Part shown: positions 5,041 to 45,415 of the stretch, in pieces
How positions within the stretch are numbered: the first letter of the stretch is position 1
How the letters are laid out: each line of letters begins with the position of its first letter
Origin: Rugalucina vietnamica
Lineage: Eukaryota > Mollusca > Bivalvia > Lucinida > Lucinidae
Direction: 5' to 3'
Assembly (NCBI GenBank): GCA_964017185.1
Contig: OZ024878.1
Location: forward strand, 216,501-280,500
DNA: 64,000 nucleotides
Translations under genes and position numbers: made by a program
Notes under the pieces: model-generated
Seen by the model: only the letters and a program-made list of their open reading frames with translations
Databases searched by the model: none
Told to the model about the DNA's origin: nothing

Positions 5041-5305
5041 TAGACAATCAACAGTTCATGCAACAAATTTTACGCCATTCTATTTAATACAAGATTTCAT
5101 CCCCCAATCGTTAAAGCACATTGCTGAATTCAAAATGTGGAGATATTTAGGTACAAATAACGGGATATTTGTCCATCAATGCACTGAGACTATACATTGG
5201 AAAGTCGTAAAATTGTGTCATAGATGATCCCTAGGCATTTAGGTGTCCGCATTATGACATACTTCAGACATTTGCTTTATCCGTATTTTACAGGGAATTA
5301 GGTCT

Positions 5306-5535
5306 GTGACTCTTGTCAAATACTTACGTGGTATCATCTTGGTTTTGTCAGGCAATAAACATGCAACTATTGTCAGTACATATGCACCCGCGATGACCAA
5401 TACGGATGAGGTCAAAGACAAGTTCTATAATGACTTAGACGACGTTATTTCTGCAACACCCCGAACAGACAAGCTTATTCTCCTTGGCGACTTTAATGCC
5501 AGAGTTGGTACAGACTACCAGACATGGGAAGGAGT
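5306..5535 (+). mobile_element. LINE endonuclease fragment
   Basis: The frame starting at 5306 encodes the middle of an APE-type endonuclease of a non-LTR retrotransposon. Visible motifs are 'STYAPAMTN', 'YNDLDDVIS' and the conserved 'LLGDFNARV', ending at 'TWEGV'. The same protein segment occurs in the minus-strand LINE near 14880-14960, so both come from one LINE family, the kind often annotated in animals as craniofacial-development-protein-2-like. The fragment lacks the N- and C-terminal parts of the endonuclease and all of the reverse transcriptase. It joins without a gap, and in the same frame, to receptor-like sequence at 5536. Confidence 0.85.
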
Positions 5536-6101
5536 GGCAATGAGCGCTCTCTCTGTTGTTTTCTCAGTGTTTGTTCTCAGTTTTCACCACAGAGGTGCTT
5601 TCACGCGAGGACCACCGCAGTGGATCAAGACGCTCACAAAGTGTATCAATGGTGCTTTATGGTGGAGCTCAATTCAGTAGCGATAAAGGATTTCAGATCA
5701 TGGAAAATTTGTTGGGTCAAAATATCCATCACGATAATTATAGCCAAGGAATGCCTGAATACGACGCGTTGCTTACACACGAAATCCCGAACGTCAACCA
5801 TGTAGACGCGCATAACTTTAATAATAGCGCACATTCCACTGCACAGACTCGCGCGCATGCGAATGTGGACACTATTTCTATGAAGGATGAGATCATGAAA
5901 TATTTCACTACAGTGGCCGCGGGACATGAAAAGGTTCTTGAGGAAAAGAGAACAATACACGACTGGCAAAAGGTGGCCAGGATACTAGTCAAAGTGTTCT
6001 TCTGGACTTTCCTCTTGATCACTACTTCTTCAAGTTTTGCATTGCTAATTATCAGTCCGATGAATAAGGCTATTAACATTGAAGACTACATGACTAAGTA
6101 G
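5536..6101 (+). pseudogene. Nicotinic-receptor-like Cys-loop channel, M3-M4 fragment
   Basis: The sequence encodes the C-terminal portion of a Cys-loop ligand-gated ion channel subunit, most like invertebrate nicotinic acetylcholine receptors. In the first frame, 5536-5670 gives the end of M3 ('SALSVVFSVFVLSFHHRG') and the start of the cytoplasmic loop ('PPQWIKTLTK'). A +1 shift between about 5641 and 5680 moves to a second frame, which runs to a stop at 6099-6101. It encodes a short loop of about 80 residues, an amphipathic segment before M4 ('EIMKYFTTVAAGHEK', 'HDWQKVARIL') and M4 ('VFFWTFLLITTSSSFALLII'). The ligand-binding domain, M1, M2 and most of M3 are absent; a LINE endonuclease fragment abuts instead. 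Such channels are plasma-membrane cation channels. The truncation and shift suggest a pseudogene, but a real last exon with a sequencing error or a hidden intron is an alternative. Confidence 0.7.
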
Positions 6102-10066: not shown

Positions 10067-11709
10067 TTACTGGTTTGTAATAGGCTTAGTATTAGGCTTG
10101 CGCTTAATAGGCATGCAGCAGCAATAGTTTGGTCGCATCCCCTTTTTCATCAATGCGCACCCTTTCCTCCCATAGCCGAACGTTGACATCCCGACTTTAT
10201 TGGGATCCACTTGTGGAGACGTTGGATTGGCTCGAAGTCTCGGATGGTTCTTCTTCACATGAAGTGCATCGAAGCAGGCGACACTGTAAAACAACATACA
10301 GTTGTAATGAATGAATTTTAGAAAATGCATGTATTACGTTTGGTCGTTGTGCAAAATAAACATCAATGGGAAGTAACAATGTACTTAAATTTATATCTTG
10401 CAGAAGGGAAAATTTCCAGGCGTGTATTTGAGCTTGAGAAATAGCATACGAGAGGAATTGCATGCCGTTCAACATCACTCTCTAAGGTCGCAATTCTACA
10501 GCCGTATACCAATTGTTCCGAAACTTGATCTTCTTAAAGACGTACGAGCGTAAACATACCTATTTCATGACGCTGTATGTTAATGAAAGAATGCGCCAAC
10601 ACTTGGCCCAACCCGGTTAGGTACACATGTACCGACCAACGGAATTAAGCTACCGCAATTTGTTGTAACTTAAAAACAACCCCTTCAAGTTAAGGAAACA
10701 ATATATGATGTCATTTAAAGTGCTCCACTCATTGGAATCCAAAACGCGTCTGATTATTTAAGATTAAGATTCAATGCGATAGATACTGTATTAATATTTG
10801 GTAGAATACAAATATGCTTGATGAGAAGTGTGCGCATATGGACATGTTTTTTTCGGAAATGACCAGGATGTGCGCTAATTGGAGCATTTGCGCTAATTAG
10901 AATGAATACGGTATTCAAAAGCTCGTAATTTGAAAGCAATAAACATGTATTAGTTAAAGCCATGTGAGGCAGCGATGATTTCCCGGATGAAATGCACAAC
11001 AAAATAGCCGGATGCAGTCACTTACGTGAGATACGTGTTATACGTTTGCGCCAATATCCCTGTTTTGGCCATTTGGCAGACCTTGTGGCAGGAGGGTCTA
11101 GGCCTTCTACAATCCCGTCGAATGGCGTGGGTCCATCCTTTTCTCTGTGATGCACAATACGCCTGGGCGACTTCATCGAAATAACTGTAGCTCAAACTGT
11201 AATATCTTACTCCAGACACCCCGGGGGTACTAGCTGCAATTCAGTGTTAAAAACTGTAGAAACAAAGAAAGTTATTTGAATGTTCATTTAACAGTATAAC
11301 TAAGCACTGTTATTGTCTTGATTTGCAGTTTCTGCTGTGATTTATTTCTATATATCCTGACTGAGTGTTTAATCTTTTTCTCTTTTGGTGTGTTTCATTT
11401 TGTTGCCAGCTGCATGGTCACATCGCATTGAAAGAGCAGGTTTTTCACGCAACGTATTATTTCTTGTAACGTCTATGTTAAATAATGTCATTTTCATTCA
11501 AGTGGTGCCTGGTTGGAATTATGTTTGATTACTGAACTTTCTTTTCTTACTTTAAGTCAACAAATATTAACTAAAAGATTTAACTAAGTTTATTGGCAGG
11601 TACATATTAATGAACAAGACCAGGTACTCATCCAAATTATAAACAAGACAAGGTACTCACCCAAAAGTACTGCAAACAGTATCAAACTGACAACGAAGGT
11701 AATTTTCAT
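10067..11709 (-). CDS. Secreted cysteine-rich protein, three exons
   Basis: A complete spliced gene can be read on the minus strand: exon 1 at 11709-11661, exon 2 at 11233-11026 and exon 3 at 10283-10067. Exon 1 begins at an ATG and encodes a signal peptide (MKITFVVSLILFAVLL), ending in phase 1 at a GTGAGT donor. Exon 2 follows a 'gaattgcag' acceptor, completes an Ala codon and ends in phase 2 at a GTAAGT donor. Exon 3 follows 'tgttgttttacag', completes a Thr codon and runs to TAA. The total is 474 nt, or 157 residues, with nine cysteines after the signal. Notable motifs are 'GWTHAIRRDC', 'SCHKVC', 'FDALHVKKNHPRL' and a C-terminal 'NYCCC'. Agreement of both junction phases makes a real gene very likely. 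It is presumably secreted. I do not recognise an experimentally defined family, though the motifs vaguely recall uncharacterised bivalve proteins. Introns are 427 and 742 bp. Confidence 0.8.
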
Positions 11710-11750: not shown

Positions 11751-11791
11751 CAGAGATTCAAAGAGAAATGACAGAGATTCAAAGAGAAATG
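11751..11791. repeat. 21-bp promoter-proximal tandem duplication
   Basis: The 20-bp string CAGAGATTCAAAGAGAAATG occurs at 11751-11770 and again at 11772-11791, directly upstream of the TATA-like site of the secreted-protein gene. Confidence 0.85.
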
Positions 11792-12232: not shown

Positions 12233-15200
12233 GGTCGTTAGTCTCTTACTAATGAGAAAGACCATCATTATTTCTTGTATGGGTTCGTGTGTGTTGGTGA
12301 GTTCTTTGAGGGCCGACATGGCCCATTCTAGCTCTAAACTGTCGGTTGCAAGTAGAGCAAGTCAGTGTCATGGAATCAGCTGATGGCCCGTTGGTATTGG
12401 CTTTGCGTTCTCTGCGCTTTCTTTCATCTTCACAGATTCTCTTTTTTCATAGAGAGCTGCTCCTTTGTTGATGAGACCTCGCCACTTTGATCGCTCCTGT
12501 GCAGTCTGTTCCCAAGACCCAATAGGTATGTCGAAATCCTTCAAAGAGGCTTTGAGGGTGTCTTTGTAGCGTTTCTTCTGGCCACCTTGATAGCACTTTC
12601 ACCCCTGTAGTTCTCCATATAAAACTTTCTTTGGAAGTCGCTCATCAGACATTCTTATAACATGGGCAGTCCACCTTAGCTGTGCTAGCTTTAAGACAGT
12701 ATGAATGCTTTGCATCCCTGCTTTCTTCAGGAGTCTGTGTCTGAAATCTTGTCTTGCCATTTGATTTTCAACAGCTTTCTCAAACAGCTCAAGTGGAAAT
12801 GGTTAAGTCTCTTTGCATGACTCTGGTATACTGTTCAGGGGTCACATGCATACAAGAGGGTTGGCGGTACCATAGCCTTGTAGAGTTTCAGCATGGTGTC
12901 AAGCTTGATTCCATTTCGCTCCCAGACATTTGCACGGAGTCTTCCAAAAGCCACACTGGCTTTTGCAATTCTTGCAGTGACCTCATCATCAATGTGCACT
13001 GCTCTGGAAAGAGTGCTTCCCAGGTAGGTAAATTTATCAACCACTTTCAGTTTTTGTCCATTCACAGTGATGTTTGTTTCATTGTACGGTTTTCCAGGTG
13101 CTGGTTGGTGTACAACCTCTGTCTTTTTGTGCTGATTGTGAGATCATAGTTATCACATGACTGTGAGACTTGATCCATGGCCCTTTGCATTTTGCCTCTG
13201 AGCTGTTATTCTTATCGATATCATCTGCATAGAAGAGCTCATCTAGCACATCATTCTGCACCTTAGTTTTGGCTTGCAACCTTCTTGGGTTGAACATATT
13301 GCCATCAAAACGGTACCTGATTGGAAAACCAGTGTCACTCTCCTAAAAAGCATCCATGAGCATGGCAGAAATAATAATGCTGAACAGTGTTGGTGCAATA
13401 ACACAGCCCTGTTTGACCCCATTCGTTACCCCCAAGGGTTCGGAGAACTCTCCATCATTTTGCACACGTGTTTGCATGCCATCATGAAATTGCCGCACCA
13501 TTGCTATGAATCTGGGTGGACAGCCAAACTTGGCCATGATTTTCCAGTCCATCACGACTAACTGTGTCAAAAGCTTTGGTGATGTCGACAAACGTCATGG
13601 TCTACATGCTGTTCTTGGTATTTCTCCTGAAGCTGTCTTGCTGTGAAGATCATGTCCATTGTCACTTGGTCTTTTCTGAATCCACATTGACTTTCTGGGA
13701 TTAGTTTTTTAAGATCAAAATGAACATTCACGCGGCTCAATAAAAATTTTGCAAGTATCTTCCCAGCAATCCATCGGAGGGAAATGCCTCTGTGGTTGTC
13801 ACAGGCTTGTGGATTTCCTTTCCGCTTGTATGGGTGGATAATGGATGCATCCTTAAATTCTTGTGGAAAAGCCTCCTTCCTCTACATACTGTGAAACAAC
13901 TCTGTCAGTTTTTCTGCAATGGGTAGCCCCCCGGCCTTATAAACCTCTGCAGGAATTGCATCTGCACCTTTAGCTTTCCCAGATGACAGTTGTTGATCTG
14001 CTTTTCTTGTTTCCATGACGGTTGTAAATTCATCTAACAAAACATTGCACTCTATCTGTGGATTTCTGTAGATTGCATCCTCATTGATGCTTGATGTCGA
14101 TTCAGCACACTATTGAAATGTGCTGCCCACCTTTTCAAGATAGCATCTTTATCTGTGAGAAGAGTGATTTCATCTACACTGAGCAATGTGGTGGCTCCAG
14201 AACTCTTTGGGCCATAAATGGTTTTCAGTGCATCATGAAATTTCTCCATGTCCTTTCTGTCCGCAAAAGACTGAATTTCTTGTTTTCTTCCTCAGCAAGG
14301 AATCTTGCATGTCCCTAAGCTTGGTCTGGACTGTCTTACAAATGTTGCTGTAGGCTGTTTTCTTGGATACTGAGCTAGTATCATCTTGATGTGCCTTGTG
14401 CAATCGGTGTTTTTCTTCAAGAAGCCTCTGAATTTCATCATCATTCTCATCAAACCAGTCTTGATGTTTGCGAGATGGATGACTTAAGGTAGTAGCAGCT
14501 GAAGAATGAACTGTTTTATGGAAAACTGTCCAGTTTTCTTCCGGGTTCTCTGAACTGAGATTGATTGCATCCAGTTGTTTGCTGATGTCCGTAAAGAAAG
14601 CTTGTCTCATGATGTCTTGATTCAGCTTTGAGACATCCAGTCTGTTAGGAGCTTTCTTGCCTTGAGGTCGCCTCGCAGGCTGGATTCTTAGGTTGAGTTT
14701 GCTGACAACCAGTCTATGATCTGTCCAGCAGTCTGCACCGAACACATAGTCCTTGTCACTCTGACATCCTGCCTGTCTGTTCTCCGCAATATGACATAGT
14801 CTAGAAGCAAGAGGCCATTTCTGTTGCACTTTCCATCACCTTCTGGACCTATAACTCCTTCCCAGGTTTGGTGGTCTGTACTAACTCTGGCATTAAAGTC
14901 GCCAAGAAGGATAAGCTTGTCTGTACGGGGTGTTGCAGAAATAACGTCGTCTAAGTCATTATAGAGCTTTAATGTTCGCACATTCCAGCCAATCCTCAAA
15001 GAGATTATCTTTCTTTGTTTTTTTTTTTCTTATTATTTCGACCGCTATAGAGGGATACCCGCTGATCGCGGTTAACCAGCCAGGGGGTTTGAAGCAGGCA
15101 ATTGTTTAGGGCACCTTTTCTAGCCACTTCCATATACTACGGGGTAGAACGGTGCGGTCCTAAATAGGTCTGCTCAGTCGCTCAGCCGACTGCCGAATCC

Positions 15201-25559: not shown

Positions 25560-27730
25560 TGTATCATGGCTACCATATTACCACATGTATCTTGGCTACT
25601 AATAAACCTAGAGAGCAGAAATAGGTAGCAAATGATTGATTTGGCAATGCTATATAACCATGTAAAAAGATATTATTATCAAAATGACTTTCTGGTATTC
25701 GAGTATTTATGAAAACTTTATATATTAGACAAAAATCACATAAAATGGAGTAAACCTTCACAATTGTTTATATCTCAGCAACCAAAGGCTCTAAAGAGCT
25801 TGAATTGGTATCAAATGATTGCTATGACAATGCTCTATAACCATGTAACAAGATATATAAACAAGCTGGCTATCTAAATGCTCAAATGTTAAAAAGAACA
25901 GATTTTAGAGAAAATAACAAATAAATGAAGGGGGTATATCAACAAAATTCTGATATCTCAGCAACCAAAAATTCTAGAGACCTGATTTTTTTTATTAAAT
26001 GATTGTTTTCGTGATGTTCTATAATAATGTGAAAAGATACAGAAAGATTTTGACTTTCTTGGTGTTCAAATATTGATGAGAACTTTCAATAATAGAGAAA
26101 AATAATAGACCAATGTATGGGGGTATACCTACAGAAACGTTTATAGCTCGGCGACCAAAAGCCATAGCGAGCTGAAATTGGTAACAAATGATTGTTATGA
26201 TAACATCTTAAAACACAAAATAAGGTACATTAACAATCAGACCTTCGTGCTGTTCGAATACTTAGGAAACTTTAAATATTAGATATAAATCACAGGAAAT
26301 GATGGGGGTACACCTAAAGAAACGTGATTTTCTCAGGAACCAAAAGTCATAAAGAACAAAAATTGGAATCAAATGATTGCTATGAAAATTTTCTATAATA
26401 ATGTAATAAGATATATAAATCGGCTGACTTTCTTGTTGCTCAAATATTTAAGAGAACTTCAGATTTAAGAGAAAAATCACTGGCAAACGAAGGGGGTATA
26501 CCAATAAAACTGCTGATATCTCAGTGACCAACAGCTATAGAGAGCTAAAATTGGTATCAAATGATTGTTAGAATAAAGTTCTATAATCATTTGATAGGAT
26601 ACATAAAAAATTTGACTTTCTCGTCGTTGGAATATGGATGAGAACTTTAAATATAAGATAAAAATCGCAGAAAAATAGAGGGCGTATACCAACGGAAACG
26701 TATATATCTCAACAACCAAAAGTTATAGAGAGCTGAAATTGGTATCAACTGATTGCTATGACAATATTCTATAATCATGTAAAGGATATATAAACAAGCT
26801 GTCTGTCTTGATGCTCAAATATTTTAGAAAACTTAAGATATAAGAGAAAAATCACTGGCAAACGAAGGTGATATACCAATAAAACTGCTTATATCTCAGT
26901 GACCAAACGCTCTAGAGAGCTGAAATTAGTATCAAATGATTGCTAGAATAATGGGATAAATCATTAATAATTTGACTTTCTCGTTGGTGGAATATTGATG
27001 AGAACTTTGAATATTAGATAAAAATCTCAGAAAACTAGAGGGGGTATACCAACGGAAACGTATATATCTCAACAACAAACGTCCTAGAGAGCTAAAATTG
27101 CTATCAAATGATTGCTATGACAATATTCTATAATCATGTAAAGGGTATATAGACGAGCTGTCTTTCTTGTTGCTCAAATATTTAAGAGAACTTAAGATAT
27201 ATGAGAAATCACAGGCAAACGAAGGGGATATACCAATAAAACCGCTTATATTTCAGTGACCAAAAGCTCTAGAGAGCTGAAATTGGTATTAAATGATTGC
27301 TAGAATAATGGTATATGATCATGGGATAAAAACATACATAATATGACTTTCTCATTGTTGGAATATTGATGAGAACATTGAAAATTAGATAAAAATCTCA
27401 GAAACCTAGAGGGTGTATACCAACCGAAACGTATATATCTCAACAACCAAAAGTCATAGAGAGCTGGAATTGATATTAAATGATTGCTATGACAATATTC
27501 TATAACCATGTAAAGGGTATATAAACAAGTTGACTTTCTTGTTGCTCAAATATTTAAGAGAAAAATCACTGGCAAACGAAGGGGGTATACCAATAAAACT
27601 GTTAATATCTCAATGACAAAAAGCTCTAAAAAGCTGAAAGTGATATCAAATGATTGCTTAGATAATGTACTAAAACCATGTGGTAAGACAGACAAACAAT
27701 CTGACTTACTTGATTTTCGAATACTGATAA
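25560..27730. repeat. ~185-bp tandem array with dimeric higher-order units
   Basis: At least eleven units are marked by 'atatctca..(a/g)accaaa', 'gagagct(g/a)aaattg', 'tatcaaatgattg' and 'gggtatacca'. Marker positions are about 25769, 25958, 26140, 26330, 26513, 26703, 26889, 27061, 27246, 27430 and 27604. From 26513 onward two unit types alternate: 'ctcagtgacc' with 'caataaaactg', and 'ctcaacaac' with 'caacggaaacg'. This gives a 357-376-bp dimer. It looks like a satellite-type array. Confidence 0.88.
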
Positions 27731-31797: not shown

Positions 31798-31848
31798 TGT
31801 TTATGGGATGATCTAATATTTTTATTTACTGTGTCTGTTGTTTTACAG

Positions 31849-33175
31849 ATTGTCATCCTCCAGTATATACCGCGACTAAAAATCGCAATAATAGAGTTCA
31901 GCTACCACCAGAAAATTCATATGAACCACCACCAAGATACTTTGATGCACAACCGCAAAGATATTCAGTGAAACAACCGATAGGATATCCCGATGAACTT
32001 CCGCTAAGATACTCTCATGAACCACCACCAAGATACTTTGATGCACAACCGCCAAGATATTCAGTGGAACAACCGATAGGATATCCTGATGAACTTCCGC
32101 TAAGATACTCTCATGAACCACCACCAAGATACTTTGATGCACAACCGCCAAGATATTCAGTGGAACAACCGATAGGATATCCTGATGAACTTCCGCTAAG
32201 ATACTCTCATGAACCACCACCAAGATACTTTGATGCACAACCGTCAAGATATTCAGTGGAACAACCGATAGGATATCCTGATGAACTTCCGCTAAGATAC
32301 TCTCATGAACCACCACCAAGATACGTTGATGCACAACCGCCAAGATATTCAGTGGAACAACCGATAGGATATCCTGATGTATTCAGATGAACCCCCGCCA
32401 AGCTATTCACACGTATTTGATACAAGGTCAAACGCCTATGCAATAAACTATACTGAACAAAGAAGTGAACAATCTGGAAATGGTCGCATCAGTACAATAT
32501 CTGGACGCCTTGTCACAGAGCAAACTCCAACAGAATTTGACCGACATGAAGAAAACGCTGGCTCTCTTGAGAGACACACTTTCATCTTTTCAACACACCC
32601 TCAATGTCAGGTGAGACAGACAGAACATACTGGTACCCTGCCTCACAATCATGTATCACAAACAAGACGTTACCTACCTATCGGAGGTGAACACTGGTTC
32701 CGTTGAAAAATGCATAATTCCTCTTCCTACAGACCCTGACCATCAGGTGACACACACAGTCGTAAATACTAGTTCTCCTGAAGCACTCCAGGGTCTAAAC
32801 AGACGACAAAGAACTGACACAGACAATAACACTCAACTCCCTGATTCCAATGATACAACAGATCCAGAGATTCGATGTACGAGTATACGATTAATCTGCT
32901 TTGCTTTTGGAGCATGTCTGATATGTTTAATTACAGGAATATTGGCTTTGTACTTTGTGTGGAGGAAGCACAAGTTTTTTTCAGCAGGACAGAACAAAGA
33001 GGCACTGAAGTCAGAAAATGCGGCAGTCATTCTTATCGTTGTCAGTTTTATAATATTCCCCGTGGGTTGTATTGTCACGCTTTGTTTGGCTGGGCGCTAT
33101 ATGTTTTTAATATACATTATGATAGCATCCTTATTTGCTTCCTTTTTTGTTGCGCACTTTGTTCATTTTTATTAG
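31849..33175 (+). CDS. PPxY-repeat protein with hydrophobic C-terminus (dispanin/CD225-like?), frame broken
   Basis: A good acceptor ('ctgttgttttacag') precedes 31849 and opens a frame starting '(xx)CHPPVYTATKNRNN'. It continues through five 32-residue repeats to a stop at 32388-32390. The sequence right after the array reads on in the next frame ('YSDEPPPSYSHVFD') to 32610. A donor CAG|GTGAGA at 32610/32611 and an acceptor 'ctgaccatcag' at 32746 could join it in phase to 32747-33175. The C-terminal part has one hydrophobic helix ('LICFAFGACLICLITGILA'), a basic/polar link ('WRKHKFFSAGQNKEALKSE') and two more hydrophobic stretches before a stop at 33175. The pattern of a proline-rich N-terminus, a helix, 'G..xEA..S..A' and a second helix resembles dispanin/CD225 and PRRT-type membrane proteins, by inference. 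PPxY motifs, about ten in all, normally bind WW domains such as those of NEDD4-type ligases. The 5' exon is not identified. The frame break may be pseudogenisation or misassembly of the array. Confidence 0.6.
31923..32402 (+). repeat. 96-bp coding minisatellite, five copies
   Basis: Units begin at 31923, 32019, 32115, 32211 and 32307 with 'gaaccaccaccaagatac'. They are nearly identical, with only a few substitutions (for example PQRY, PSRY and YVDA variants). The period is exactly 32 codons: EPPPRYFDAQPPRYSV followed by EQPIGYPDELPLRYSH. The fifth unit is cut short after 'cctgatg', where the frame changes. Confidence 0.95.
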
Positions 33176-43989: not shown

Positions 43990-45415
43990 AAAAACCAAGG
44001 CAACTTATTAGGTTTTCCATCAAATGTCTGTTTTCGTCAGAAATATTGACATTATACTATTTTTATTATTCATCAATGACTTGCCCCTATTTCTTAACTA
44101 TTGCTTCGCCGATTTCTTTGCTGACGATGCAACATTCCACACGCATAACAAAAATATAGATACCGTTGAAAATCACATAGTAGATGACTTTGGTAAAACT
44201 AAACAATGGAGCAAACGTAACAATTTACCAATTAATTATAGTAAAACTACGTGTATGGCAGCAGGTACCAAAAAGCGATTAGCACTTTCACGTAAACTCG
44301 AAATCAAAGTGGACGGTATCTGTATTGAAAATGTTTCAAAACAAAAACTCATGGGAATTTATATTGATGAAAACTTGAATTGGTCGGCACATATAGATTA
44401 TCTTTGTTCCAACATCTCGTCCAAAATATCACTCCTCCGCCAACTCTCTCAGTATGTTCCTCAGCACGTGCAAAAATTATTTTATCAGAGTTACATTATG
44501 CCTCTGATAGATTACGGTTCCGTAGTATGGGGTTCCACATCTACCTATAACCTTGACAGAATTCTAAAATTACAGAAAAGAGCAGCCAGAATTATATTAA
44601 AGGCAGATTTTCTAACTCGTTCCGAAGGTATGTTTGCAGAACTTGGATGGCAACCTGTCGAAAAAAGAATAATGTATAACAAAGCTGTCTTAATCTATAA
44701 GGCCTTAAATAATTTAACCCCGGAATACTTATCTAAACTTTTGACACCCGTTTCACAAACACATGGCCTTAACTTAAGATCTAGTAAAAAAGGAAATTTA
44801 CACGTGCCAAGGTCTGGAACAGCACTTTATAGTGAAGCATTTTCATGTTCGGCGCCTAAACTGTGGAATAATCTCCCACAATCAGTAAAAGACTGCGATA
44901 CATTGAATTCTTTTAAAAGAAGTCTTAAAGCTACGATGTGATTATTTTTACACATTTTATAAGATGCTTACTGTATTTAATTGTCATTTTTAAATCTAGT
45001 TTAGGTCATCAACTTAGTATTTTACATATTCTATGTACTGTCTGAGCTGATCAATCTGTTGCATTGTGATACGGTTGAATGAACTGAACGATGCTGATAG
45101 GATTTCTAAATCTATGTCTGGTAAAACTATAATTCTTAACAAATGCCATTGTTTTTACCTCGTTTTAAGTTTTATATGTCCATCAGAATTGTTTTTTACA
45201 TTTATGAATTTATGGTAACGATAGATTTTTCATCTGAACATGAAAATATCCTTACTTCTAAATATCATCATAGAAATTTTTTTTATATTGTTTGTACATA
45301 TTGTAAATGTGTTATTGTTTTACAGAGGGCCACAAGGTAGAATGGCTATTTTAGCTAATTGTGCATTCCTCTTAAAATATTGTATAAATAAAATAAATAA
45401 AATAAATAAACTTGT
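43990..45415 (+). mobile_element. 5'-truncated LINE (CR1/L2/jockey-like)
   Basis: A reverse transcriptase fragment (44024-44941) is followed by about 470 bp of 3' untranslated sequence ending in 'taaataaaataaataaaata'. Short A-rich simple-repeat tails of this kind are typical of CR1/L2-like LINEs. The 5' part (endonuclease, RT fingers) is missing. Lack of frame damage suggests a fairly recent insertion. Confidence 0.85.
44024..44941 (+). CDS. Reverse transcriptase C-terminal fragment
   Basis: This intact frame of 305 codons covers the palm-to-thumb part of a non-LTR reverse transcriptase and the C-terminal domain. Residues about 14-22 give 'LLFINDLPL' (RT domain 4-5). The catalytic box reads 'FADD' near residue 33, an F for the usual Y. 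'INYSKT' and 'LMGIYIDENLNW' are RT domains 6-7. The C-terminus ends with 'RSGTALYSEAFSCSAPKLWN' and 'LPQSVKD', typical of jockey/CR1/L2-type proteins. The first ~10 residues before 'FLLFIND' no longer match the usual 'GVPQGS' region, so the start codon is accidental. No active enzyme is expected from this truncated copy. Confidence 0.9.
   Translation: MSVFVRNIDIILFLLFINDLPLFLNYCFADFFADDATFHTHNKNIDTVENHIVDDFGKTKQWSKRNNLPINYSKTTCMAAGTKKRLALSRKLEIKVDGICIENVSKQKLMGIYIDENLNWSAHIDYLCSNISSKISLLRQLSQYVPQHVQKLFYQSYIMPLIDYGSVVWGSTSTYNLDRILKLQKRAARIILKADFLTRSEGMFAELGWQPVEKRIMYNKAVLIYKALNNLTPEYLSKLLTPVSQTHGLNLRSSKKGNLHVPRSGTALYSEAFSCSAPKLWNNLPQSVKDCDTLNSFKRSLKATM

Follow-up and report, generated by a model that had tools for sequence, protein, structure and literature searches.

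A three-exon gene and its duplicated copies

The window, by which we mean the whole 64-kb stretch of DNA analysed here, is part of a genome assembled into 47 contigs that total 1.09 Gb. On its minus strand lies a gene of three exons (49, 208 and 217 nt) that comprises 157 codons followed by a stop. The exons join in phase 1 and then in phase 2, exactly as the initial annotation proposed, and both introns have consensus GT/AG borders (GTGAGT/CAG for intron 1 and GTAAGT/CAG for intron 2). The parts of the gene, and the larger duplicated segment that contains it, are as follows.

11661..11709, minus strand: exon 1, with the start codon and the hydrophobic core of the signal peptide, ending in phase 1; conserved in five paralogues
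11234..11660, minus strand: intron 1, 427 nt, GTGAGT...GCAG
11026..11233, minus strand: exon 2, with the end of the signal peptide and the first half of the domain (cysteines 43, 58, 65 and 69)
10284..11025, minus strand: intron 2, 742 nt, GTAAGT...ACAG
10067..10283, minus strand: exon 3, with the second half of the domain (cysteines 89, 128 and 140–142), a 15-residue tail and the stop
10070..10114, minus strand: tail after the CCC, 15 residues with several Lys/Arg; small changes among five of the six clade members (see below), shortened in L012
7721..14281, no strand: segment shared with L009, the nearest copy (C15:33.19 Mb), gene included; about 6.5 kb in blocks that are around 90–95% identical with gaps between them; the ends of the shared segment lie further out

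The coding sequence has a G+C content of 47%, compared with 32% and 37% for the two introns. A nearer acceptor for intron 1, at 11254, was considered and rejected: the resulting reading hits a stop, and the acceptor at 11233 is therefore needed. A perfect 21-bp tandem duplication (11751–11791) lies immediately upstream of the start codon. The encoded protein contains the motifs GWTHAIRRDC, SCHKVC and FDALH and the nine cysteines to which attention had been drawn earlier, the last three of these at positions 140–142. This CCC had been described as terminal, but 15 residues follow it. The signal peptide that had been reported is clear on inspection, and on that basis the protein is predicted to be secreted; likewise, the suggestion of a disulfide-rich protein holds up, with the disulfides predicted from conserved cysteines. 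When cut at an assumed site, the mature protein has a computed pI of 9.9.

At five other loci (L009–L013, on contigs C15, C8, C6, C1 and C8), all four splice borders are conserved and the domain frame stays open. Introns and flanks are also common to these copies and the window, and we therefore regard them as segmental duplicates. The six three-exon genes form 15 pairs, which overlap, so that pair statistics are not independent tests. Exons have a lower substitution rate than introns in all 15 pairs (P < 0.05 in 10), and dN/dS, at 0.27–0.77, is below 1 in each of these overlapping comparisons. Exon insertions and deletions in the ten pairs without L012 are of 3 or 6 nt only; introns have 10–34 insertions or deletions per pair, most of which are not multiples of three. 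L012 is frame-shifted within the tail that follows the CCC and is hence shortened there. Family members that do not have intron 2 read across the junction of exons 2 and 3, which provides independent confirmation of those borders. The conservation across the five paralogues is far beyond chance; the gene is real and, we infer, probably expressed.

The gene had also been taken for the only intact host gene in the 64 kb, and this is roughly right, except that a second host gene-like sequence lies at 31812–33172 on the plus strand, where proline-rich 96-bp repeats are followed by a hydrophobic part. At C15:63803–64276, inside an open frame of 438 amino acids, there is a copy with 80% identity to residues 16–173 of the hydrophobic frame; within the window, the pieces of the sequence fall in different frames. 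Elsewhere the window contains an array of about 11.5 copies of a 187-bp unit (25608–27712) and three stretches with weak endonuclease or reverse-transcriptase matches, all below Pfam cut-offs (5258–5677, 14691–15029 and 44012–44938). Judging from these matches, the three stretches are probably pieces of non-LTR retrotransposons.

A ten-cysteine family and its basic clade

A search of the genome with the window protein gave 41 matches at 35 loci: the six three-exon genes, 26 loci with a whole domain and no intron 2, and three loci that are broken or frame-shifted (L022, L039 and L040). A query with an acidic member recovered four extra places (C11:16.778, C12:20.397, C7:3.509 and C13:28.225 Mb, the last of which contains stops), and the size of the family, at least 35 loci, is a lower bound. 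The 32 intact animal sequences, window protein included, align with 16 invariant columns (Y6, D8, A11, C15, R27, C30, C37, C41, C61, H71, P72, L74, Q82, Y111, C112 and C113). Seven of these columns are cysteines, and at a further two positions cysteine is conserved in 90% or more of the sequences. On the basis of this alignment, which itself contains the window protein, we defined the CGPNYCCC ten-cysteine family; the window protein has homology over the whole domain and matches at all 16 invariant positions. The typical family end is GCGPNYCCC, with variants such as DCSVNYCCC, and the 26 members without intron 2 mostly have ten cysteines (24 members; one has eleven and one has eight). L037 (4000–4096) has neither the cysteine at the GC position nor the last cysteine of the CCC, a single case that hints that these two residues pair.

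The family could not be assigned to a named one. The window protein had no match in Pfam, PDB sequences or NCBIfam at E values of up to 10, and the family profile had none among PDB sequences. Pfam searches with the 32 domains produced weak matches only (B3_4 in two, and Destabilase, Neurokinin_B, ATP_synth_reg and Catalase_C in one each); the window domain scored 11.3 bits against B3_4 (E = 0.26; cut-off, 29.3). Viral contigs in IMG/VR did not match the protein, two alignments, the bacterial domain described below or a DNA pattern; GTDB contigs did not match the window protein used as a single query, and no match was found in phages and plasmids. In the open-access papers searched, ten short motifs were all absent. 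The window protein is thus, as judged from these comparisons, a member of a family of small, apparently secreted and disulfide-rich animal proteins without a named-family match.

Signal peptides are clear by inspection in all six three-exon genes. For the other members, a strict scan of 26 for first exons yielded only three unconvincing candidates at two loci, and comparison of the signal peptide of the clade with DNA upstream of 15 loci gave nothing convincing (best E = 0.41; positive control L009, E = 1 × 10−6). Six conserved upstream blocks, found at six loci, do not read as signal peptides.

We modelled the structure of a relative of the window protein, L014, rather than of the window protein itself, using 26 family sequences (mean pLDDT = 87.9, pTM = 0.79). 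The predicted order of elements is a helix, a strand, two short helices, a strand, a long loop, a short strand, a helix and a last strand that bears the CCC. A model of the bacterial domain, which is less confident (pLDDT = 77), has a similar order of elements. Neither model had a significant match in the PDB, a result that falls short of demonstrating a new fold, and the L014 model had no significant match among viral proteins. After removal of its signal peptide, the window protein would be a basic product of about 134 residues, folded as one disulfide-stabilized alpha/beta domain with the CCC on the last strand.

Maximum-likelihood analysis groups the six three-exon genes as one clade (support, 100/100), which is joined with L014–L016 (97/99). 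Of the intact members that were examined, only those of this clade have intron 2, and the 26 others do not; parsimony favours one gain, on a tree without a fixed root. Inside intron 2 lies a dispersed repeat, about 210 bp long (10705–10915), and about 35 other places with 74–86% identity are listed among the 40 of 1,213 candidates that were scored. We rejected the idea that intron 2 is a copied mobile element: the repeat covers just about 210 of its 742 nt and is insufficient alone.

The clade is also distinguished by a lost cysteine and by its charge. The cysteine that precedes GPN (or SVN and similar variants) is replaced by Met, Leu or Ile in all six members. The remaining 26 aligned animal members all retain it, as does the bacterial domain. 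We file the clade as a derived subfamily of the CGPNYCCC family in which the tenth cysteine, which does not define membership, has been lost. With one of ten cysteines absent, the number is odd and a free cysteine is predicted; each chain should have one, which could allow disulfide-linked dimers to form. The net charge of the domain is +16 to +19 in this clade, +1 to +8 in L014–L016 and −1 to −13 in the remaining 23 members from the animal. A shift towards basic charge within the animal tree appears to be the simplest reading. The bacterial domain has a net charge of +8 and is thus basic, and an acidic ancestor is therefore not established.

A bacterial relative with a DUF3011 domain

One GTDB locus encodes the domain (33 pattern matches, of which 1 was confirmed). 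It is on contig CALKBI010000074.1 of a metagenome-assembled genome of an uncultured Neomegalonema. The protein, which has 323 residues from a TTG start or 309 from the first ATG, begins with an apparent signal peptide, clear by inspection; a DUF3011 match (83.1 bits; cut-off, 25) is followed by the domain, which closes the protein and has all ten cysteines aligned. A profile constructed from animal sequences only matches the bacterial domain with E = 6 × 10−6 (bias-corrected score, 23.6 bits; correction, 14.9), and the best of 2,000 shuffles of the same domain reached E = 0.075 (10.4 bits). The open frames around the gene are uninterrupted, as in bacteria, and the two parts of the gene have G+C contents of 52% and 50%, with neighbouring genes ranging from 34% to 57%. 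The homologue is rare: its own genome was the sole match among 385, 398 and 390 genomes sampled from the class, phylum and order, respectively. A second match among 198 genomes of its taxonomic family (G190, E = 9.1 × 10−4) was dismissed as noise when the animal-only profile was used (best E = 0.61), and no CCC was present in G190 in frames of at least 40 residues.

The bacterial homologue keeps the ten cysteines but is without the Asp and His that are conserved in animal members, which argues against a shared catalytic site. Its branch in the tree is very long, and we therefore claim no direction of transfer.

DUF3011 (PF11218) is the domain reported for an egg lectin of Aplysia kurodai that binds galacturonic acid (PMC5484111). 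Another sea-hare egg lectin, related to it, reportedly inhibited a mould and three of the four bacteria against which it was assayed, and did not inhibit Escherichia coli (PMC8306185). The host genome contains seven DUF3011 matches above the Pfam cut-off, on C5, C6, C7, C10, C12 and C13. Two of them lie within 1 kb on C5, and none is within 1 Mb of the listed family loci. DUF3011 matches were found in none of the 14 control genomes.

A putative extracellular binding role

The initial annotation gave the function as unknown, which is literally still true, but it missed the large family, the definable domain, the bacterial relative linked to DUF3011 and the basic clade. We propose that the window protein may be a secreted, non-enzymatic binding protein, probably involved in defence, that acts on anionic surfaces, and place the probability of this reading at roughly 0.45. 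The domain would most likely serve for binding outside the cell, not for catalysis, and the strongly basic protein of the clade would probably stick to negatively charged microbial or mucosal surfaces in host defence. The bacterial DUF3011 neighbour, with the binding activity of its sea-hare counterpart, the expansion of the family and the difference in charge together favour a role in extracellular binding and in defence. Against the defence reading, the bacterial link consists of one contig of one metagenome-assembled genome and the sea-hare egg lectins reportedly had no effect on E. coli (PMC8306185). The basic charge also fits binding to matrix or nucleic acids, and a basic antimicrobial role cannot cover the whole family, as the 23 more distantly related animal members carry a net negative charge. 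A broader scenario, which we put forward as speculative and rather doubtful, is that a previously unnamed domain was exchanged between animals and bacteria, forming part of a lectin-like secreted protein in bacteria and expanding here into at least 35 recognition or effector genes. In one branch, the gain of an intron would then have been accompanied by a reversal of charge, from about −8 to roughly +18, and by the release of a cysteine for dimerization, giving rise to a new kind of cationic defence protein.

The large, cysteine-rich family with opposite charges would also suit structural proteins of the extracellular matrix (shell, byssus, egg coat or mucus) built from the disulfide domain, with acidic and basic paralogues binding mineral, each other or glycans. 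Such a role is in keeping with the finding that the window protein matched no enzyme family above a cut-off and that matches among the 32 members were weak and scattered. We nevertheless consider it unlikely, although worth keeping in view, because the protein has a single compact domain in which residues other than cysteine are conserved (Y6, D8, R27, H71-P72 and Q82), not a set of low-complexity repeats, and because the DUF3011 domain of the bacterial homologue argues for recognition. An apparent signal peptide, dense cysteines and both tandem and dispersed duplication would also fit a secreted signalling ligand, or an effector of the disulfide-rich toxin kind directed at prey or predators. 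This reading is improbable: the window protein has no match to a Pfam family or PDB sequence, the gene model contains no propeptide, and typical peptide effectors are smaller.

The weak Destabilase match of 1 of the 32 members (E = 0.0072) suggests an enzyme, or an inhibitor of one, such as a distant relation of the invertebrate-type lysozyme (destabilase). The other 31, including the window protein, have no such match, the Asp and His conserved in animals are lost from the bacterial homologue, and there is no significant fold match in the PDB, although that is weak evidence; we give this explanation little chance. Three of the 35 family loci (L022, L039 and L040) are broken or frame-shifted, as might be expected if the gene model were an artefact of gene finding or a pseudogene. 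This is highly improbable for the window gene in view of the splice sites and open domain frame in all six clade members, together with the exon rates below intron rates and dN/dS below 1, each in 15 of 15 pairs.

What began as an isolated gene prediction now stands as a domain family that can be defined by a sequence signature, with one member modelled confidently and a relative in bacteria. In that bacterial protein, the adjacent domain has a counterpart in sea hares whose binding activity has been measured (PMC5484111). The motif and alignments are directly usable for searching other animal genomes. If the defence reading is true, the family would add a disulfide scaffold to innate immunity and illustrate clearly how charge can change among the genes of a single family.

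Several known systems resemble the window protein in part. Invertebrate-type lysozyme/destabilase (PF05497) has a similar size range and cysteine richness and is weakly matched by one of the 32 members, whereas the window protein has no match and no catalytic residues were identified. The cationic cysteine-rich defence peptides of molluscs (big defensins and mytilins) are likewise small, apparently secreted, basic, disulfide-rich and multigene; the window protein differs in having no Pfam match to any of them or to other families. Big defensins, mytilins and similar peptides are shorter than the mature window protein of about 134 residues and have a different cysteine spacing. With respect to DUF3011 proteins, which include the Aplysia egg lectins, the window protein has no DUF3011 match, and its domain is distinct, with its own cysteine pattern; however, the bacterial homologue of that domain has DUF3011 in the same protein, and both domains occur in the host animal and in that bacterium.
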